NCBI GenBank assembly: GCA_013151495.1 | Contig: JAADIE010000031.1 | Coordinates: forward strand, 1 to 36,259 | Length of the DNA: 36,259 nt | Direction: 5' to 3' | DNA from: Nitrospirota bacterium | GTDB lineage: Bacteria > Nitrospirota > Thermodesulfovibrionia > Thermodesulfovibrionales > JdFR-85 | In this document: positions 333-10,016 of the stretch, in pieces | Layout of the letters: each line of letters begins with the position of its first letter | How positions within the stretch are numbered: position 1 is the stretch's first letter | The notes under the pieces: model-generated | The model's input: the letters and a program-made list of their open reading frames with translations, nothing else | Told to the model about the DNA's origin: nothing | Database searches by the model: none | Position numbers and translations under genes: made by a program

Positions 333-848
333 ATGAGGCTACTTTTTATCGGTGATTCTTTAATTGAGTATTTTGACTGGCAGGAGAGATTTCCCTCCCA
401 CCAGGTCTACAACCTTGGCATTGCTGGTGAGACCGTAGAGGGTCTCCTTTATCGTCTGTCCGATATACTGAAGAATTACCCTGCAGCTGATTATGTTTTT
501 GTTATGACAGGAATAAATAATGTAGCCATGGAGGATCTGGATTTTTTCAGCACCTACGAGCAGCTTCTTAAAGAGCTTAAAAATGCCTACCCGGCTTCAA
601 GGATTTATATCCACAGCCTTTTGCCTGTGGATGTTGATTTTATAGAAAACAGCCTGATACATACTGTTAATGAACGGCTAAGGGAGATGGCCAGGCGGTT
701 TGATATAGGTTATATAGATATCTATCGTCAGTTTGCTGATGAAAGGGGAGCACCAAAAGAGGGCTACCTGCTTGACGATGGTGTGCATTTAAGCAACAAG
801 GGGTACGAGGTCTGGAGTAAAGAGATTGAGAAAGTTTTGAAGATATGA
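333..848 (+). CDS. SGNH/GDSL-family hydrolase
   Basis: N-terminal GDSL-like block LLFIGDSLIEYF, MTGINNVA block, C-terminal DDGVHLSNKGY (catalytic D-x-x-H). Confidence 0.85.
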   Translation: MRLLFIGDSLIEYFDWQERFPSHQVYNLGIAGETVEGLLYRLSDILKNYPAADYVFVMTGINNVAMEDLDFFSTYEQLLKELKNAYPASRIYIHSLLPVDVDFIENSLIHTVNERLREMARRFDIGYIDIYRQFADERGAPKEGYLLDDGVHLSNKGYEVWSKEIEKVLKI

Positions 849-968
849 TGGTATTCCTTTGAACGGTTTCAGCACACGCCTGAAGCAGCCGTGATGGCTG
901 CTTCAGTGTGCGTCCTCGGAGCCGCACATGGATGTGCGGCGAGAATGAGAAAGAAATACCATCATATC
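842..968 (+). ncRNA. Structured intergenic element, copy 1 (novel candidate; RNA or DNA hairpin element)
   Basis: Perfect 14-bp outer stem GATATGATGGTATT (842-855) / AATACCATCATATC (955-968), one C.A mismatch, then CTTT/AAAG; conserved GAACGGTTTCAG; hairpin CTGAAGCAGCC-GTGAT-GGCTGCTTCAG; CCTCGGAGC; hairpin CCGCACA-TGGA-TGTGCGG; GCGAGAATGAG. Confidence 0.7.
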
Positions 969-979
969 AAAGTTAAAAG

Positions 980-2440
980 ATGTTCAAACTGGTAATAACA
1001 GTTTCTCTTAAAAAGGAGCTTCCTCTTCAGTGGTTAAAGGACAGGGGGCTTACAATTCTTACCACCCAGGCTATTGAGTCGGGTGCCCTGAAAGGCCTTG
1101 ATACCAAAAAGATTAAAGACCCCTTGATTGTTGTCACAGGGGTTGGTCCTCAGCAGGCTAACAGGGCAGCAAAAGCCATAGCTACAAATCTTACCCCACT
1201 TTTTGTGCTTCACATTGGTACCTGCGGTATTTTGCGAAAGGATTTACCTCTGAGAAAATGGTTAAGGCCAAGGTGGTTAAGCTCTTCCTGCAGTGAAGAG
1301 CTCCTGATGATTGATCCAAGAATTCCACTTCCTGTTTACACTGATTTAACAGATATAAGGCTTCATGAGGTTTCAAGGCCCTTCAGAGGTAGCCTCGATG
1401 GGATTGATGCTGTGGATATGGAGTGCTATAGCCAGGCGAGGGTATTTAAACAGGCTGGTATTTCATTTCATGCCCTTAAGTTTGGTACTGACTATGCAGA
1501 CCATAACCGCGACAACCAGTATCATGAAAGCCTTCCAGTGCTTCATGATGCCATAAAGCAGCTATTTAGTTTTCTTGATGGTCAGTTTGCGGGAGAGGAT
1601 GTTTCGGTTGTAATACCTGTTTACAACAGGCCTGACCTTGTTAAAAGGGCAATAGATTCGGTACTTAATCAGAGCCTGAGTCCCGGAGAGATAATAGTGG
1701 TTGATGATGGTTCAACGGATAATACCTGGGAGGTTTTAAAAAACTATAAAAACCCTATCAGGGCCATCAGGCTTGAGGAAAACCTGGGGCCATCGGCTGC
1801 CCGAAATAAAGGTGTCCTTGAAAGTACGGGCAGGTGGATTGCCTTTCTTGATTCAGATGACTACTGGAAGGAAGATAAAATAGAGCGCCAGTTAGAGTAC
1901 TTAAAGAGGTATCCCTATTTTGAGATTCTACAGTCTGAGGAGATATGGATAAGAAATGGAAAAAGAGTAAACCCCTGTAAACACCATAAAAAACCAGAGG
2001 GTTGGGCCTGGGAGCCGTCATTAAGACGGTGTTTGATTTCACCATCTGGAGTGATGATGAAAAGGGATATCTTCTTTCGTTATGGTCCTTTCAGAGAGGA
2101 CTTTCCAGTTTGCGAAGACTACGATTTATGGCTTAAGATAACAAGAGGGCATCCTGTGGGTCTTGAGCCATCTTTTACTGTAGTAAAGTACGGTGGACAT
2201 GGGGATCAACTGTCCCGTCGTTACCCTGCTATGGACAGGTTCAGGGTAAAGAGCCTTTTTGAGCAATTTGAAAGAGAGCCCTATCCGGAATTCAGGGAAA
2301 AACTGAAAGAGGTTATTAATGAAAAGCTGAAAATACTTTACAAGGGTTATAAAAAAAGAAGCAGATGGGAAGATGTAAAATGGTGTGAACAGATCTGGCA
2401 GAGGATTGGATATGAAAAGGTGCTCGTTGAAAATCTCTGA
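980..2440 (+). CDS. Nucleoside phosphorylase/nucleosidase-like domain fused to family 2 glycosyltransferase
   Basis: N-term VVTGVGPQQANRAA...HIGTCGIL...DAVDMECYSQARVFKQAGI (PNP_UDP-like VDME motif); C-term VSVVIPVYNRPDLVKRAIDSVLNQSLSPGEIIVVDDGSTDNT...AFLDSDDYW (GT2). Confidence 0.85.
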   Translation: MFKLVITVSLKKELPLQWLKDRGLTILTTQAIESGALKGLDTKKIKDPLIVVTGVGPQQANRAAKAIATNLTPLFVLHIGTCGILRKDLPLRKWLRPRWLSSSCSEELLMIDPRIPLPVYTDLTDIRLHEVSRPFRGSLDGIDAVDMECYSQARVFKQAGISFHALKFGTDYADHNRDNQYHESLPVLHDAIKQLFSFLDGQFAGEDVSVVIPVYNRPDLVKRAIDSVLNQSLSPGEIIVVDDGSTDNTWEVLKNYKNPIRAIRLEENLGPSAARNKGVLESTGRWIAFLDSDDYWKEDKIERQLEYLKRYPYFEILQSEEIWIRNGKRVNPCKHHKKPEGWAWEPSLRRCLISPSGVMMKRDIFFRYGPFREDFPVCEDYDLWLKITRGHPVGLEPSFTVVKYGGHGDQLSRRYPAMDRFRVKSLFEQFEREPYPEFREKLKEVINEKLKILYKGYKKRSRWEDVKWCEQIWQRIGYEKVLVENL

Positions 2441-3380
2441 GATTCTCGTCAGTGATAGCCTTTTTAATTACCAGGGCTATGTATTCAAGGAAAAGAGACC
2501 CGATGATTGCCTTAAAAAGCTTTTAATGCAGTACCCTGAAGCCCTGCCCCTTGTGGTTTATACTGACCAAACTGGCAGGTATCACCTGGTGGATGGTTTC
2601 AGGAGGATTGCTCTGCTTTCAGAGGAAAAACAGGAGGTGATTAATGCCCTGGTTTTTCCTGCCGATACCCCAGGGGAGGATATGATCTTGGTAAGAGCAG
2701 ATCAGGACTGGGTTGAGATTGCCTCAACCGGGGCAAACAGATTAGGTTTTTTGGCCTTCGCTATCAGGGCTACGGTGGATAGAGAATGGGTGTTGAAAAG
2801 ACTCTGCAGGTGGCTCAGTCTAAGACCCTCGGAGGAGACACTCCAGATGGCTGAAAAACTGACAACCCTTTCAATGAAGTTAAGGGAGTTTTTTCATCAA
2901 AAATCCTATAGTGCAAAGCAGCTTGAAAATATCCTCCGTTACCCTTCAGATCTGCTTGAACTGCTGGGTGGGTGGCTTGAGAGTTTACAGGTAACGGCCT
3001 CCATTTTAGAGGAGCTTTTAGAGGGCCTACATGATCATATGCGGGCTATGGATATGAATGTATCAGAGCTTAAGCGCCAACCCGAAATAGGAGAGATCCT
3101 GAAGGGTAAAAATCCCCATGAAAACACCCGGCGATTAAGAGAGCTTCTTAATAGCTGGAGAAGACCTATACTTACGGAGAAAAACCAGAGGATTCAGAGT
3201 ATGGTTGACAGAGCCGGTCTGCCACCCGAGATAAGGCTTTCATGGGATAGGAGCCTTGAGAACCATCAGGTTAACATATCGGTTAATATAAAAAGGGCAG
3301 AGGATGTAGAGAGGGTACTGGAACATTTTAATAAACAGAAGGTGCTGGATTGTATAAAGGGTGTTTTGAAAGAGTTATGA
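2412..3380 (+). CDS. ParB N-terminal-like domain protein
   Basis: LKISEILVSDSLFNYQGYVFK...LPLVVYTDQTGRYHLVDGFRRIALLSEE resembles the ParB/sulfiredoxin-like N-terminal fold (DGFRR). ATG at 2412 preferred over the upstream GTG. Confidence 0.65.
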   Translation: MKRCSLKISEILVSDSLFNYQGYVFKEKRPDDCLKKLLMQYPEALPLVVYTDQTGRYHLVDGFRRIALLSEEKQEVINALVFPADTPGEDMILVRADQDWVEIASTGANRLGFLAFAIRATVDREWVLKRLCRWLSLRPSEETLQMAEKLTTLSMKLREFFHQKSYSAKQLENILRYPSDLLELLGGWLESLQVTASILEELLEGLHDHMRAMDMNVSELKRQPEIGEILKGKNPHENTRRLRELLNSWRRPILTEKNQRIQSMVDRAGLPPEIRLSWDRSLENHQVNISVNIKRAEDVERVLEHFNKQKVLDCIKGVLKEL

Positions 3381-3393
3381 GACTAAAGATGCG

Positions 3394-3508
3394 GTATTGT
3401 CTTTCACTCATTCTCGCCGCACATCCATGTGCGGCTCCGAGGACGCACACTGAAGCAGCCATCACGGCTGCTTCAGGCGTGTGCTGAAACCGCCGTTCAA
3501 GTCAATAC
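3394..3508 (-). ncRNA. Structured intergenic element, copy 2
   Basis: Reverse complement is identical to copy 1 over 85 nt (GGTTTCAGCACACGCC...GGCGAGAATGAG); outer stem GTATTG / CAATAC, then an A.A mismatch, then CTT/AAG; 3-nt insertion GAACGGCGGTTTCAG relative to copy 1. Confidence 0.7.
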
Positions 3509-3563
3509 ATTGCTCTTTGTAAGACTTTAGATAGTACCAAGATCGAAATAACTATAAAAACTT

Positions 3564-4559
3564 ATGGATAAGAACACAGTAAAATTAACAGAAAAGAAAG
3601 GCAAGGCCCTTGGCATCTGTGCTACCTTTAACCCCAAGTACATATGCTGCAAGGTCCAGGTACTAAGGGCTGTAAAGAACTGTCCCTTTAGCTGCACTTA
3701 CTGCTTTTTACAAAACTACCTTAATGAAGAGACCCCACAGGTAGTTTCAGATACCGGGGCCTTGATTGAAGAGGTTAAGGAAGCAATAAAAGCGAACCCC
3801 TGGCGGCTTTTTCGTGTAGGCACCTGGGAGCTTGGCGACAGCCTTGCCTTTCCTGAAGCTGACCAGCAGGTAAAGGAGTTAATAGAGGCCTTTTCTGAGA
3901 TACCTGAGGCTATGCTTGAGCTAAAGACAAAGTCTTCAAGGGTGGAGCATATTCTGGGGCTTTCACACAGAGGAAAAACCGTTGTCTCCTGGTCATTAAA
4001 CCCGGAGGAGGTGGTACAGAAGGAGGAACTCCACACCGCCTCGTTATATGAGCGTCTTCATGCAATGCAGAGAGTGCAGGAGGCTGGTTATTTGATTGGG
4101 CTTCATTTTGACCCAATGATACATTATCCAGACTGGCAGAGGGGATACACAAGGCTGGTTGAGCAGATATTCAGTTTCCTGAGGCCCGAGCAGATAGCCT
4201 GGATTTCAATTGGTTCTTTGAGGTTCAATCCAGAGATGAAGAGACTCATAGAACAGAACTTTCCCCACACAAGGATAACCCTTTCGGAAATGGTAAGTGC
4301 CGATGACAACAAGACCCGTTATGTAAAACCCCTCAGGCTTCAGATGTACAGATTGCTTTATGGACAACTAAAGAGGCACCTTAAAGGTGAACCCGTGATT
4401 ATTTATCTATGCATGGAGCGATGGGATATGTGGGAGAGGCTATTCGGTTTTACCCCTGACAGCTCAGAAGAGCTCGATTACCTTTTTGCTGAAAACCTGT
4501 ACAAACGGTTTGGCATAGGCAGGGTCAGGCCTGAGAGAAGAAACTATAAAGTTGCTTGA
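3564..4559 (+). CDS. Spore photoproduct lyase (SPL)-family radical SAM protein
   Basis: Radical SAM motif CPFSCTYCFLQNYL with SPL-like context (ELGDSLAF, ELKTKSSRVEHIL). Confidence 0.85.
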   Translation: MDKNTVKLTEKKGKALGICATFNPKYICCKVQVLRAVKNCPFSCTYCFLQNYLNEETPQVVSDTGALIEEVKEAIKANPWRLFRVGTWELGDSLAFPEADQQVKELIEAFSEIPEAMLELKTKSSRVEHILGLSHRGKTVVSWSLNPEEVVQKEELHTASLYERLHAMQRVQEAGYLIGLHFDPMIHYPDWQRGYTRLVEQIFSFLRPEQIAWISIGSLRFNPEMKRLIEQNFPHTRITLSEMVSADDNKTRYVKPLRLQMYRLLYGQLKRHLKGEPVIIYLCMERWDMWERLFGFTPDSSEELDYLFAENLYKRFGIGRVRPERRNYKVA

Positions 4560-4584
4560 CATAGAATCAGCCCTGTATTACAAT
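4556..4584 (+). promoter_or_regulatory. Sigma-70 promoter of the toxin-antitoxin pair
   Basis: TTGACA (4556-4561), 17-bp spacer, TACAAT (4579-4584). Confidence 0.75.
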
Positions 4585-4590
4585 GTAATA
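4576..4590. promoter_or_regulatory. Palindromic operator candidate (TATTACA-A-TGTAATA) overlapping the -10
   Basis: Perfect 7+1+7 palindrome overlapping the -10 box upstream of an RHH protein gene. Confidence 0.65.
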
Positions 4591-4616
4591 ATCTCAATTG
4601 AGGAGGCTATTAGTAT

Positions 4617-4835
4617 ATGCGGACATCGATTAGTATAAGCCTTCCAGAAGAATTAGCAAAGGAAATAGATAAGGTAGTGAAACAGACCTCTCTTACAAGA
4701 AGTGAGTTGGTGAGGGCAGCCCTTGATGAGTATCTTTTTAAATTCAGATTCCGTAAACTAAGGGAAAGACTTGTTTTAAAGGCCCGAGAAAAAGGCATTT
4801 ACACTGATGAGGATGTCTTTGAACGACTCGGATGA
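4617..4835 (+). CDS. Ribbon-helix-helix (CopG/MetJ-like) antitoxin
   Basis: MRTSISISLPEELAKEIDKVVKQTSLTRSELVRAALDEYL, canonical RHH fold; overlaps the downstream PIN gene. Confidence 0.88.
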   Translation: MRTSISISLPEELAKEIDKVVKQTSLTRSELVRAALDEYLFKFRFRKLRERLVLKAREKGIYTDEDVFERLG

Positions 4836-5239
4836 GGATAGTTGTTGACACAAACGTTCTAATTTCTGCATTTATAGCTACAGGAACCTGCAAAGACATC
4901 CTTGAATATGCAGTTGAAACACATGAGGTGATAATCTCTCCTTACATTCTGAAGGAACTTAAAGAAAAGCTTATTGAAAAACTGGTTTTTTCTACAAAAG
5001 ATTATAGGGACATCAGGGATATACTTCAACAACATTTAACTGTTGTTACTGAAAAGAAGTCACTTCAGTCCTTTCCTGACAAAGATGATATACCGATACT
5101 GAATCTATGCTTAACGGTTAAGGCTGATATTTTAGTGACAGGAGACAAAGAACTCCTAAAACTGAGGCTTATCGGAAATACAAAGATAATCCCCCCTTCT
5201 GAGTTTTGGAAGATTGAAAAGGGTATAAGATCAAGGTAA
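4832..5239 (+). CDS. PIN-domain toxin
   Basis: MRIVVDTNVLISAFI...FPDKDDIPILNLCLTVKADILVTGDKELL, acidic PIN motifs; 4-nt overlap with the antitoxin. Confidence 0.88.
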   Translation: MRIVVDTNVLISAFIATGTCKDILEYAVETHEVIISPYILKELKEKLIEKLVFSTKDYRDIRDILQQHLTVVTEKKSLQSFPDKDDIPILNLCLTVKADILVTGDKELLKLRLIGNTKIIPPSEFWKIEKGIRSR

Positions 5240-5275
5240 AGAAGTTAGCAAACTCCTCGAGTATATTTTTAGAGT

Positions 5276-6283
5276 ATGAAAGAAAACAAGCTTTTGTTAC
5301 CCCTTGAACCTGATGAAACACCTGAGATGGCCTGGCTCTGGATAGGCACCTGGAGCATGGGTGGAGAGGGCTTTGGCCCACATGATGAAAGGGAGTCGCT
5401 GGAGGTTTTAAGGCTTGCCCTTAGGGAAGGTATCAGGCACTTTGACACTGCAGGGTTTTATGCCCATGGTCGATCAGAGGAATTGCTTTCAAAGGCCCTC
5501 AAGGGTATAAGAGGGTCGTGCTTTATATCGACAAAGGGAGGGCTTAAATGGCAGGGCAAAAAGGTGGTACACGATGCCTCACCAGAGGGCCTGAGAAGGG
5601 CATTAACCGAAAGCCTTCACAGGTTAAAGACCGATTATTTAGACCTCTTTCAGCTACACTGGCCAGACCCCCAGGTGCCTGTGCCTGAAAGCATAGATGC
5701 CCTTAAAGAGATGCAGACAGAGGGGCTCATCAGGTACTGGGGTGTTGGAAATTTAAGCGAGGCCCAGGTCAGGGAATATCTTTCAGAATATAAGGACATC
5801 CCCCACCAGGTACACTTTAATCCTCTTCATCGTACCGATTCTGTGCTACGGGCTGGCAGATGCTTCTGTATTAACTGCATTATATCTCCTTTAGAACAGG
5901 GCCTTCTGGCTGAAGGAAAAAGCTCTTCTGGCCGCACGGCCCTCAGTAAAAGGGACCTGAGGAGACGAAATCCCTATTTTATGAACCCCCAGGCCGTGGA
6001 GAGATGTAAAAAACTCCGAGAACTTACCAGTAAGGCACCCTATCCGCTTTCAGTTTATGTGCTACTGTGGATTGCAAGTAAGGAGGATGTTCATACCCTT
6101 ATACCTGGACCCCGGAAAATCTGGCAATTAAAAGAGATCTTATTTTTCAGGAATATCGTTAAAGACAAAGGCCTCCTGGCCGGTTACGACGAGGAGGCCT
6201 TACTGAGGGGGAGGGTTGTCAGGGAGTTGTTTCCCATGGGGCTCTGGGAACAACTCGAAACCCTAAACAGGGGCTTGAGGTGA
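5276..6283 (+). CDS. Aldo/keto reductase
   Basis: GTWSMGGEGFGPHDERESLEVLRLALREGIRHFDTAGFYAHGRSEELL...YLDLFQLHWPDP...WGVGN. Confidence 0.9.
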   Translation: MKENKLLLPLEPDETPEMAWLWIGTWSMGGEGFGPHDERESLEVLRLALREGIRHFDTAGFYAHGRSEELLSKALKGIRGSCFISTKGGLKWQGKKVVHDASPEGLRRALTESLHRLKTDYLDLFQLHWPDPQVPVPESIDALKEMQTEGLIRYWGVGNLSEAQVREYLSEYKDIPHQVHFNPLHRTDSVLRAGRCFCINCIISPLEQGLLAEGKSSSGRTALSKRDLRRRNPYFMNPQAVERCKKLRELTSKAPYPLSVYVLLWIASKEDVHTLIPGPRKIWQLKEILFFRNIVKDKGLLAGYDEEALLRGRVVRELFPMGLWEQLETLNRGLR

Positions 6284-6295
6284 GACATATTACAG

Positions 6296-6541
6296 TTATT
6301 TTCTTTTTATTATGAATGTTATTGTTTCATCTTTGTCCTCCACCTGGATTATCTCTGCATCAAGTCGTTTAAGAAGGGCAGGTATGTCGGTAAGGGTTGC
6401 CCTGTCTGTGGCCAGCACCTTCAGGGTCTGGCCAGGCTCCATACTAACAACAGCCTTTTTTGTTTTAAGGGCTGGCATCGGACAGGTAAGCCCCCGTAAA
6501 TCAAGTACCCGATCTTCCTTATGGCCGGTGTCTAAAAGCAT
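6296..6541 (-). CDS. TusA-family sulfurtransferase
   Basis: LDLRGLTCPMPALKTKKAVVSMEPGQTLKVLATD (TusA CPxP motif). Confidence 0.92.
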   Translation of the reverse strand: MLLDTGHKEDRVLDLRGLTCPMPALKTKKAVVSMEPGQTLKVLATDRATLTDIPALLKRLDAEIIQVEDKDETITFIIKRK

Positions 6542-6921
6542 AGCACTCCTTTCGCATCTACGGTGATATCAATAAGAGTCATGGCTCCGGAAACCCTGGC
6601 TCCTTCAATGAGGTCTTCCTCGGTAAGCCCCTTGTTTTCCATGGTCTGGGAGCAGCACAGTATCTCTACACCTTCATCAAGGGCCTCTTTAAGCCGCTGT
6701 GAAAGGGAGGGCTTAGAGGGGTGCTCCTTTTCATACTCCTGTATTGCACCCCGCACCATAATATCAACACCCTGCTGTATGCAATAAACCACGGTGTGGT
6801 ACTCTGCGGCAGCAGCCAGTGCAGCAAACATCAGGGCAGACTTGGCCCTTGCCACATGGTCAAATCCGGAGGCACAGAGGATAACGAAACTTTCCTTTAC
6901 AGGCTCTTGAACCTTTACCAT
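6532..6921 (-). CDS. DsrE-family sulfur relay protein
   Basis: SFVILCASGFDHVARAKSALMFAALAAAAEYHTVVYCIQQGVDIMVRG...GVEILCCSQTMENKGL; overlaps the tusA-like gene. Confidence 0.85.
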   Translation of the reverse strand: MVKVQEPVKESFVILCASGFDHVARAKSALMFAALAAAAEYHTVVYCIQQGVDIMVRGAIQEYEKEHPSKPSLSQRLKEALDEGVEILCCSQTMENKGLTEEDLIEGARVSGAMTLIDITVDAKGVLCF

Positions 6922-7452
6922 TTACAGAACCTCTAAATTGCTTGATAGTTTTACAGGTCGGGAAAGGGTGGTGCCAACTGGTGAGGTGCTGATCACATGA
7001 TTGTGAAGTGCTTCAAGGTCTTCCTTTGAGGCATCGCCCTTTAGCTTTACATTGGTCGTGATGGTCTTAAATCCGGGAAGCCTATCCATTCCTAATTCCT
7101 CAGGGGGTTCAAGTCCTAAAAACCCGGGCAGGTCTATCTCGCCTTCAAGCTCTATCTGGATGCTTTCAAGCTTAATACCCCTTACAGCCGCATTCATCGC
7201 ATAACCAATACACAGACATGCACCATAGGCCTGCAGAACCACCTCCACTGGATTTGCAGCTGTGTCAGTACCACATAGCATCTCTGGCTCATCAAAGGTT
7301 ATCTTAAAGCCCCGTGATTCTGCCTCTACCCTGAAACCGTCAAGCCAGTTGGCGGTAGCCTTCCAGACGGTTCGACCAGCCTCCCAGTTGCTCTTTACCT
7401 GCTCCACTACCTGCATAAGTTTTTCTGTTTCCAGTCCATTGATTGTTGCCAT
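6922..7452 (-). CDS. OsmC-family protein (second conserved cysteine absent)
   Basis: DTAANPVEVVLQAYGACLCIGYAMNAAVRGI ... VISTSPVGTTLSRPVKL. ATG at 7452 has a GGGAGGT Shine-Dalgarno. Confidence 0.85.
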   Translation of the reverse strand: MATINGLETEKLMQVVEQVKSNWEAGRTVWKATANWLDGFRVEAESRGFKITFDEPEMLCGTDTAANPVEVVLQAYGACLCIGYAMNAAVRGIKLESIQIELEGEIDLPGFLGLEPPEELGMDRLPGFKTITTNVKLKGDASKEDLEALHNHVISTSPVGTTLSRPVKLSSNLEVL

Positions 7453-7500
7453 AATGTTACCTCCCATTAATGGTTTTGCCCTTCAGGCCTGATTTAAAAA

Positions 7501-7514
7501 GCAACTACCATGCC
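7501..7514 (-). promoter_or_regulatory. Sigma-54 -24/-12 promoter for the OsmC-DsrE-TusA operon
   Basis: Minus strand GGCATGGTAGTTGC = GG-N10-GC with a TTGC -12 element, about 50 bp upstream of the OsmC start. Confidence 0.7.
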
Positions 7515-7577
7515 TGCAAATAACCTGTTGAAATATAAGAGAATATTAGATTCGGGATCTTTTACAAGAAAGAAGTA

Positions 7578-7624
7578 ATTGCATTTTGCATGACTAAAAA
7601 ACGGAAAGATTGCAATATGCAATC
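7578..7624. promoter_or_regulatory. Two activator-site candidates (UAS) with TGCA half-sites
   Basis: ATTGCATTTTGCAT (from 7578) and GATTGCAATATGCAATC (7608-7624), about 65-110 bp upstream of the -24 element. Confidence 0.6.
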
Positions 7625-9101
7625 ATTCAGAAAGGAGGTTGTATTTTTTCAGTTTTCTCCAAAGGGTGGCAGGATCGATGCCAAGCAATTCGGCAGCCTT
7701 CTTTTTTCTGCCGCCTGTTATGCTAAGTACCTTTTTAATGTGCTCTCTTTCGATGCTTTCAAGGGTAAGGTCTGTCTCTGGTACAGATGTACGGGTCAGG
7801 TTCTTTGGCAGGGCATCAATGGTAATTTCAAAGGAGTCGGTCATAATAAGGGCATGCTGTATGGTGTTTTCAAGCTCCCTCACATTGCCTGGCCAGTGAT
7901 AATCCATAAGCAGGGAAAGGGCCTGCTCTGTAATGCCCCGCACATTTTTCTGCATACTCTGGTTGTACTTGTTAATAAAGTATCTGACCAGAAGCGGGAT
8001 GTCCTCCTTTCGCTCTCTTAAAGGTGGCAGGTCTATTCTTATCACATTGAGCCTGTAGTAAAGGTCCTTACGAAAGGAGCCCGATTCAATGGCCTCCTCA
8101 GGGTCCTGATTGGTTGCAGCTATAATACGGACATCCACGGTCTGGGGCCTTGTAGAGCCAACCTTATAGAAGGTTCTGTCCTGGAGAAACCTCAGCAGCT
8201 TGACCTGGAGATTGGTGCTCATGGAGTTTATCTCATCAAGGAAGATGGTTCCGCCATCGGCAGCCTCAAAGAGCCCCTTTTTGTCGGCATCTGCACCAGT
8301 GAAGGCACCCTTTACATAACCAAAGAGCTCGGTCTCTAACAGGCTCTCAGGCACAGAGGCGCAGTTTATCGGGATGAAGGGCCTTTCCTTTCTCAGGCTA
8401 TTAAAATGTATTGCCCTGGCAATTAGTTCCTTTCCGGTTCCGCTTTCACCATGGATCAGGATGCTTGAGGGTATGTTAAGGGTCTTTCTTACCAGGTCCA
8501 TGACCTGCTTCATCTTCGGGCTTGTGGTAATTATACCGCTGAAGTCGTGAAATCGCTTGCACTCGTCTACCTCTTTCTGGAGACCCTCGAACAAACGGGC
8601 GTTTTCAATGGCAAGACTGATCGGGGCAGTGGCAGCCCGAAGAACATCCATCATCTCAGGGTCTGGGCTGTAGGGTGTGTGGGTGATTACACAGAGCACA
8701 CCAACAACCTTGCCCTTTGCTTTAAGCGGAAGCCCTGCATAAAACTCCATGCCCTCTCGCCTCAGTGACTCACGGGTAAAGCGGCTGTCCTGGGATGCTT
8801 TTTCATTTATGACCACCTCGCAGTCAAACTGGGCAATGTTTCCACACATGCATTCCCCAACCTTTACCCTGTTTTCTGTCAGATCCCGTACAACCTCTTC
8901 AGAAAGATTGCGAAACGAAACGGGTATCATCTCCATGGTCTCTTCGTTTATCACATAGATAACTCCGGCATCCACCTCCATGAAGTCAATAACCTTCTCT
9001 AAGGCATCGTTAAGGATACTGGTAAGGTTCAAAGACCTGCTTACCGTAAGGGCAAGTTCATACAGGATGGAGAGTTTTTTGTTTTGCCGTTCAAGGGACA
9101 T
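7623..9101 (-). CDS. Sigma-54-dependent transcriptional activator with N-terminal GAF domain and Fis-type HTH
   Basis: GAF-like N-terminus; GESGTGKELIARAIH, GAFTGA, GGTIFLDEI, C-terminal HTH GGRKKKAAELLGIDPATLWRKLKKY. Confidence 0.95.
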   Translation of the reverse strand: MSLERQNKKLSILYELALTVSRSLNLTSILNDALEKVIDFMEVDAGVIYVINEETMEMIPVSFRNLSEEVVRDLTENRVKVGECMCGNIAQFDCEVVINEKASQDSRFTRESLRREGMEFYAGLPLKAKGKVVGVLCVITHTPYSPDPEMMDVLRAATAPISLAIENARLFEGLQKEVDECKRFHDFSGIITTSPKMKQVMDLVRKTLNIPSSILIHGESGTGKELIARAIHFNSLRKERPFIPINCASVPESLLETELFGYVKGAFTGADADKKGLFEAADGGTIFLDEINSMSTNLQVKLLRFLQDRTFYKVGSTRPQTVDVRIIAATNQDPEEAIESGSFRKDLYYRLNVIRIDLPPLRERKEDIPLLVRYFINKYNQSMQKNVRGITEQALSLLMDYHWPGNVRELENTIQHALIMTDSFEITIDALPKNLTRTSVPETDLTLESIEREHIKKVLSITGGRKKKAAELLGIDPATLWRKLKKYNLLSE

Positions 9102-9122
9102 ATCTTATCATAACCTATTTTT

Positions 9123-9157
9123 GATTTTAGATTTTAGATTTCAGATTTAAGATTTTA
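9123..9157. repeat. Heptanucleotide tandem repeat, five units of GATTTTA/GATTTCA/GATTTAA
   Basis: GATTTTA GATTTTA GATTTCA GATTTAA GATTTTA in series; two further units GATTTTA GATTTTT at 9399-9412. Confidence 0.8.
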
Positions 9158-9200
9158 ATCTAACCTGTCTATTGAAGAAAGCTCACAACGATGAAGGCAG

Positions 9201-9357
9201 AAGGGTATAGGGTTTGAGCGGTTTCAGGCAATCTAAAATCTTCACCAGGAGGGTGAAGTAGATTGCCTGCCTCGGAGCAGGGGGCCCCCGTCAAAGACTT
9301 TTCGGGGCACTGAGGCCTTGGATGGCCTGCGAGAATGAGCGAAAAGCCTATACCCTT
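9201..9357 (+). ncRNA. Structured intergenic element, copy 3 (divergent helices, same conserved blocks)
   Basis: Outer stem AAGGGTATAGG (9201-9211) / CCTATACCCTT (9347-9357), G.G mismatch, TTT/AAA; GAGCGGTTTCAG; hairpin CAGGCAATCTA...TAGATTGCCTG; CCTCGGAGC; expanded arm with GGCC-TTGGAT-GGCC; GCGAGAATGAG. Confidence 0.7.
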
Positions 9358-9432
9358 GTACCTTAAAAACTGACTGATGTGTCAATAGTCAATTTAGGGA
9401 TTTTAGATTTTTTCTGCGTAAGCCTTTAACCT

Positions 9433-9491: not shown

Positions 9492-10016
9492 ATGAGCGGT
9501 AACAGAGAAGAAAGGCTGAGAGAGATTGTTAGTCGGAGGATTGAGTTTTTCAAGCGAAAACCTGAGGCAGCCATCTACCGTCCAAAGGTAAGCTCAAGGC
9601 TGATAGAGGGTCTGTACACAGAAACCCGGGTAAGGGAGCATACAGTAAAGGCGGATTATGCAGAGGCTGCCGGTGGGACAAACCGGGCGCCAAACCCAAT
9701 TGAGCTCCTACTTTCAGCCCTTGCAGCCTGTATAGAAAGTGCTGTTTATGAGTTTGCTGCCTATGAGGGTATCAGGATAAAGGCTGTAGAGGCAGAGGTT
9801 GAGGGAGAGCTCGACCTTAGAGGACTATTCATGGTTGATGATTCGGTATCCCCTGGGTTTAAGCATGTAAGCTATACCCTTAAGATACGCTCCAGTGATG
9901 ACCCCGACAGGGTCAAGGAGCTTGCCCAGAGGGTCATTGCCCACTGTCCGGTGGTTGACTCTCTGATAAGACCGGTAACCCTGAATGGAAATATTATTGT
10001 AGAGGAGGGTGTATAA
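9492..10016 (+). CDS. OsmC-family protein (both conserved cysteines present)
   Basis: GTNRAPNPIELLLSALAACIESAVYEFAAYEGI...VIAHCPVVDSLIRPV. Confidence 0.85.
   Translation: MSGNREERLREIVSRRIEFFKRKPEAAIYRPKVSSRLIEGLYTETRVREHTVKADYAEAAGGTNRAPNPIELLLSALAACIESAVYEFAAYEGIRIKAVEAEVEGELDLRGLFMVDDSVSPGFKHVSYTLKIRSSDDPDRVKELAQRVIAHCPVVDSLIRPVTLNGNIIVEEGV

Follow-up and report, generated by a model that had tools for sequence, protein, structure and literature searches.

What kind of element recurs in the 36,259 nucleotides of contig JAADIE010000031.1 from the Nitrospirota bacterium assembly GCA_013151495.1 (hereafter the window, meaning the whole of this stretch)? An earlier note, made from the sequence alone, had described three copies of an element in which conserved single-stranded blocks separate helices that differ in sequence but fold alike, and had proposed a three-way-junction RNA (riboswitch, ribozyme or small RNA-like) or a folded single-stranded DNA acted on by a recombinase. 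Our analysis indicates that these copies belong to what is apparently a large, uncatalogued group of mobile repeats, each of ~130-170 letters, that share one three-armed fold. On balance we judge it probable that the family is a dispersed, non-autonomous mobile element of ~130-170 bp, defined by a three-way junction under selection on one strand.

All three copies were located where they had been described, with covariance-model matches at 846-964 (+), 3391-3513 (-) and 9201-9357 (+) (Table 1). The first junction block reads GAACGG-TTTCAG in copy 1, GAACGG-CGG-TTTCAG (an insertion of 3 nt) in copy 2 and GAGCGG-TTTCAG in copy 3, while the blocks CCTCGGAGC, TGGATG and GCGAGAATGAG are present in each, as claimed, and the outer stems agree with the earlier description down to their single mismatch. 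A stretch of 86 interior nt is 100% identical in copies 1 and 2, whose outer stems are unlike; in arm 2 of copy 1, the loop ATGGAT lies at 928-933 and a CUCG/CGAG pair spans a GAG bulge. Against shuffles of each copy, the minimum-free-energy z-score was -8.5 for copy 1, -4.3 for copy 2 and -5.0 for copy 3. The pattern CCTCGGAG..CGAGAATGAG had 0 expected occurrences in 100 shuffles of the window, and GCGAGAATGAG..GAAA was found 16 times in the whole genome versus 0 times for its reversed control. The pattern seen in the window is not due to chance. Three points extend the earlier description: the source genome holds tens of family copies, a tandem G.A step adjoins UUU/AAA at the junction, and probable remnants of transposon ends flank copy 3 on both sides (~9160-9399).

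The distribution of the family was assessed with a covariance model that was built from copies of the source genome and its relatives and later rebuilt from 100 copies. Of the 121 genomes searched in the order Thermodesulfovibrionales, 67 gave matches, in many of them with copy numbers that are lower bounds. Across the phylum Nitrospirota, matches occur in 32 of 198 genomes, only two of which lie outside this order. A pattern scan of public genomes found matches in Thermodesulfovibrionales and in three Parcubacteria, which carry 6, 8 and 14 copies; in the class of one of these Parcubacteria, 18 of 286 genomes match. HyVt-111, a metagenome-assembled genome from a vent nominally placed in 'Proteobacteria', holds 113 copies in 1.8 Mb. 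The spread is patchy, as two complete-looking genomes of the source genome's own family carry zero copies. No family match was found in the viral contigs, plasmids and phages searched. In agreement with the note, which had not recognised a known family, Rfam gave nothing above the gathering threshold for the window or for a set of 16 loci whose copies are diverse; other Rfam comparisons gave only chance-level matches, and no description of the repeat family was met in the literature searched. Elements of different subfamilies also occur close together: three lie within ~540 bp, in both orientations, at L012:1483-2020, and one intergenic region holds different-subfamily elements in two species of the source genus (L024:1379-1543 and L331:327-449).

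The earlier note had suggested searching for further copies with covarying stems as a check on its fold, and the fold passes this check by a wide margin. In 99 distinct copies, 95.3% of the paired cells of the alignment hold standard pairs, versus ~40% when the partners are slid, and double changes occur at 36 of the 40 pairs; 37 distinct Parcubacteria copies give 91.8% paired cells and again double changes at 36 of 40 pairs. Both alignments were fitted to the covariance model and hence lean towards it, yet the excess over slid or shuffled controls is still large. The three-way junction, with its conserved junction sequence and compensatory helices, is very strongly supported. Its consensus runs from the basal stem P1 through GARCGG-UU, arm P2, the fixed CCUCGGAG and arm P3 to the fixed CGAGAAUGAG / AAUGAG. 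P1 ends in UUU/AAA followed by the tandem G.A step, and in P3 a 3-nt GAG bulge separates a CUCG/CGAG step from the upper stem. Pairing of P1 continues for 5-6 nt past the model before falling to background, giving a stem of ~20 bp. While the helix sequences vary freely, the junction blocks are constant in both phyla. Arm 1 differs in two groups of copies: in Parcubacteria (L191, L193, L219 and other loci) it has a conserved internal loop of its own, TTTTGGCATGGT..CAAAA, unseen in Nitrospirota, and in the G005 copies L309:377-618 and L045:1294-1530 it is greatly enlarged, with further hairpins that are perhaps nested insertions.

Some loci are shared by different genomes and hold a resident copy in each. 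Such elements are 91-97% identical, versus 69-80% for their flanks. In the pair L044/L076, from different genera, the interior is 97% and the flanks are 74% identical, and the helices have undergone three double changes and one single change that retains its pair, with zero pairs lost. In L227/L228, the interior is 92% and the flanks are 69-72% identical, with two double changes and again zero pairs lost. Resident copies thus keep every pair by compensatory changes while their flanks drift, which indicates selection on the fold.

The element is also mobile. G001, a genome of the same genus, has the loci orthologous to those of copies 1 and 2 but not the element, and the genes on either side lie close or overlap; the orthologue of the 980-2440 gene abuts or overlaps its upstream gene where copy 1 is missing. 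Insertion into a pre-existing palindrome was considered and set aside, as these empty sites show none, although at 70-80% identity they are not decisive. In several lineages the core lies within miniature inverted-repeat transposable elements (MITEs). Units of the G265 type in HyVt-111 are ~215 bp long, end in CTCAACTTTCTGA and have exact 6-7-bp target duplications in 11 of 26 cases, versus ~2% under shuffling. B-type units, found in the source genome's family, end in TGTCCGGTAAA and have 9-bp duplications: a direct repeat of at least 8 nt is present in 12 of 15, mostly at a constant offset that corresponds to 9 bp, versus ~6% expected. C-type units, from the same family of genomes, end in CCCnAnATTGCCGAT and have 5-bp duplications, with duplications of 5-6 bp in 8 of 13 versus ~5% expected. 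All three subfamilies therefore combine terminal inverted repeats with target duplications far above the level of shuffled flanks, and one core is carried by three unrelated end sets in at least three lineages. Unrelated ends and duplications of 9, 5 and 6-7 bp imply that the unit is moved by transposases acting on those ends. Conversely, some B-type units, of ~64-103 bp, have no core, so the B-type ends do not need it; two of these units are flanked by 9-bp repeats that, judged by eye, are near-perfect. Short core-less B-type MITEs lie at L359:1449-1514, L367:1412-1514 and L373:1501-1565; in L359 and L373 the hairpin has apparently been deleted cleanly between the two halves. Beside lone B- or G265-type ends, no recognisable transposase gene was found at the loci examined, whose assemblies are fragmented.

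Copy 3 of the window appears, from its core and degenerate ends, to belong to the C-type. Its left end, CTAACCTGTCTATTG.. at ~9160, and its right end, ..GTCAATAGTCAATTTAGGG at ~9399, resemble the CCCnAnATTGCCGAT / ATCGGCATTTTTGGG of intact C-type MITEs; no clear target duplication was seen there, and the flank is AT-rich and repetitive. An extra hairpin, CCCCGAAAAGTC..GACTTTTTGGGG, is found at the base of arm 2 in L022:1022-1180, L024:1379-1543, L064:45-206 and the window (9270-9320). As B- and C-type elements have it in common, the hairpin points to a possible exchange of modules between MITE subfamilies.

Other copies are naked, namely those of Parcubacteria (of the candidate phyla radiation), of other Nitrospirota families and of subfamily A, including window copies 1 and 2, in which no terminal repeats or target duplications were recognised. 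A pooled scan of all flanks likewise revealed no duplication next to the stem. The note had regarded a match to a catalogued MITE family as a finding that would refute its reading. In at least three lineages the core does form the centre of MITEs with terminal repeats and target duplications, but the naked copies show neither and MITEs with unrelated ends keep one fold, so that 'just a MITE' is insufficient. In four genome sets (subfamily A of the source genome G000, G074, G263 and G264), P1 identity between copies is 39-51%, versus 70-91% for P2/P3, and P1 is nonetheless 94-99% paired. MITE-borne copies, by comparison, have a P1 identity of 92-96%, and the contrast between P1 and P2/P3 is missing in G001 (P1 80%) and G262 (53% versus 56%). 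Rapid drift of resident copies does not account for this divergence, since P1 is kept in same-locus copies of different genomes; candidate explanations are that P1 is formed at insertion or that interiors are homogenised by gene conversion. A further reading, which we consider unlikely, is a new class of mobile element in which the fold itself would be the mobilisation signal, with neither terminal repeats nor target duplication, P1 being formed anew at each insertion and the element having been captured by several unrelated MITE families.

Our main reading goes on to propose that the core is an older, self-standing element that later entered several MITE families. Some factor that these phyla have in common would read its fold as a single strand, either of RNA or of DNA, and such reading may give the element mobility or tolerance by the host. 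Selection on one strand as a single strand is indicated by an excess of G.U over A.C cells (107 versus 33 in Nitrospirota and 44 versus 20 in Parcubacteria). Several observations weigh against this account. A preference built into the covariance model may exaggerate the G.U/A.C asymmetry, whose cells are not independent events. G.U pairs are also scarce, at 2.8% compared with 6.6% for 22 tRNAs encoded in the same DNA, which is below the expectation for pure RNA selection and makes RNA and single-stranded DNA both possible. The same-locus evidence comes from two independent loci, and neither an autonomous partner nor a linked protein was found for the element. Lastly, naked copies have no terminal repeats or duplications above shuffled flanks, leaving their movement unexplained.

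An explanation at the RNA level, which we regard as possible but less likely than not, holds that read-through or local transcripts fold and that a conserved RNA-binding or processing factor acts on them and so alters how stable nearby transcripts are or where they terminate; by analogy with Correia and ERIC elements, RNase III or RNase E might be that factor. The strand-asymmetric G.U excess fits this explanation, the tandem G.A step and bulged junctions are typical of RNA, and transcripts of known bacterial MITEs behave in this way (PMC10969869, PMC2229807). Family copies are intergenic and near gene ends, with median gaps of ~60 nt, as the explanation would have it, but they occur in all four gene arrangements, and the window copies have genes of unrelated kinds as neighbours (a GDSL lipase, a glycosyltransferase, an SPL-family protein, a sigma-54 activator and OsmC). 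A riboswitch is accordingly disfavoured, and a cis-acting role in mRNA becomes less likely. Between genes of the same direction, 49 copies of the larger set are antisense and 32 sense (p = 0.07), so that an antisense bias suggested by the first set (43 versus 22) is not significant, and this near-free orientation misfits a cis-acting mRNA element, as does the scarcity of G.U pairs an RNA-level element.

That scarcity would instead suit a folded single-stranded DNA substrate, in which a recombinase or HUH-type transposase moves the extruded or lagging-strand junction with no target duplication. We regard this as rather unlikely. Such a substrate, which may be likened to attC or to REP/IS200-type ends, would account for the naked copies without target duplication, and it agrees with a P1 that is nearly fully complementary yet unlike between copies of one genome, with the strand-specific junction sequence and with placement independent of orientation. 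However, the source genome is without a Y1 transposase and none of 30 Y1 genes from the order has an element within ~1.5 kb, which also led us to reject a REP/RAYT system. Tyrosine recombinase genes adjoin copies in only ~2 independent cases among ~240 loci, and the xer-like genes concerned (L183, L198 and L226) are probably chromosomal xer, so a partner of this kind was rejected as well. Moreover, an element that served purely as a transposition substrate would not be expected to show selection on its resident copies. At these three loci (L198:406-1627, L226:458-1629 and L183:486-1621), elements directly adjoin xerC/xerD-like genes; the gene in L198 is flanked by one copy per side in inverted orientation, and L198 and L226 are probably related.

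An ordinary MITE family with no further function, its fold being a by-product of palindrome dynamics and its naked copies old insertions with decayed ends, appears improbable. Terminal repeats and target duplications in the B-, C- and G265-type copies speak for it, and palindromic structure is common in bacterial MITEs (PMC2229807). It does not explain one core within unrelated ends with three duplication lengths, single-strand junction blocks fixed across phyla, same-locus copies better conserved between genera than the flanking genes, or MITEs with identical ends and no core. A riboswitch or self-cleaving ribozyme, as the note had offered, is suggested by the compact junction and conserved nucleotides but is very improbable given the missing Rfam match, the lack of a common downstream gene class, the four gene orientations and the tens to >100 copies per genome. 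A sponge for CsrA/RsmA, suggested by GGA apical loops (ATGGAT in Nitrospirota), was also rejected, as the arm 2 loops of Parcubacteria differ (GCTG, AACT, AGTT).

Table 1. Positions in the window of the three copies, their parts and the neighbouring genes.
Feature	Position	Strand	Remarks
Copy 1, naked subfamily A, complete three-way-junction element	842..968	+	Covariance-model match; absent from orthologous G001 locus
Copy 1 outer stem P1, 5' arm GATATGATGGTATT-C-CTTT	842..860	+	Read directly; P1 covariation, helices 1 and 2, ~95% paired
Copy 1 conserved junction block GAACGG-TTTCAG	861..872	+	
Copy 1 arm 1 (P2), GCACAC.../...GTGTGC, apical CTGAAGCAGCC/GGCTGCTTCAG	872..911	+	Helices 3 and 4
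Copy 1 CCTCGGAG, arm 2 (P3) and GCGAGAATGAG	914..949	+	Helices 5 and 6
Copy 1 outer stem P1, 3' arm AAAG-A-AATACCATCATATC	950..968	+	Read directly
Copy 2, naked subfamily A, 3-nt junction insertion	3391..3513	-	Covariance-model match; absent from orthologous G001 locus
Copy 3, putative subfamily C, arm 2 enlarged by extra hairpin GGGGGCCCCCGTC...GACTTTTCGGGG	9201..9357	+	Covariance-model match
Degenerate C-type MITE around copy 3, probable extent	9160..9399	+	Comparison by eye with G002 copies
GDSL lipase-like gene	333..848	+	Stop codon inside 5' arm of copy 1
Glycosyltransferase-family gene, 3' of copy 1	980..2440	+	
Sigma-54 activator gene, one side of copy 3	7623..9101	-	
OsmC-like gene, other side of copy 3	9492-10016		

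The gene 3' of copy 1 is a single open frame with a weak phosphorylase-superfamily match at its start and a family-2 glycosyltransferase further on, and is possibly a gene fusion.

The closest known kinds of element are structured bacterial MITEs and intergenic repeats such as ERIC, Correia and CIR; what is new is a core shared across unrelated ends and two phyla. Structured bacterial MITEs (ERIC/IRU, Correia/NEMIS, RUP; PMC2229807, PMC10969869) are likewise small, non-autonomous, intergenic, of high copy number and strongly structured, and share terminal repeats and target duplications with some of our subfamilies. Those families have one end set each and mostly one long stem-loop (PMC2229807, PMC10969869), whereas the present three-way-junction core, with its fixed junction sequence, is found inside several unrelated end sets and, in the naked copies, with no ends at all. 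CIR repeats of Caulobacter and Brucella, as outlined in PMC2229807, resemble it in having a conserved two-arm structure, an intergenic position and no terminal repeats; in that review's account of Chen and Shapiro (2003), a linker connects their arms, which contain a GANTC motif, and the ends of the repeat do not pair, and relative to that account the present family differs in its basal stem closing a three-way junction and in its fixed blocks. REP/REPIN elements, mobilised by RAYT/Y1, are also dispersed folded elements without target duplication, but REPs are palindromes of 20-40 bp, most of them tagged GTAG or CGTC (PMC3733652). The present family, unlike these, has no linked Y1 gene. In integron attC sites the fold of one strand is similarly kept while the sequence varies. 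An attC site forms a single long hairpin in which the core sites are paired, in contrast to the three-way junction and fixed junction sequence found here, and no cassette array was seen, although no search aimed at the integrase family was made.

Taken together, these results describe a strongly covarying folded element that is present in two phyla at tens to >100 copies per genome and is missing from Rfam. As its core is common to transposons with unrelated ends, the fold rather than the ends is the conserved feature. The finding also carries a caution, in that structure and covariation can stem from a mobile element, and covariation alone is not proof of a regulatory RNA. With copies in different genera showing selection on the fold at fixed positions, the purpose of structured bacterial repeats becomes directly testable.

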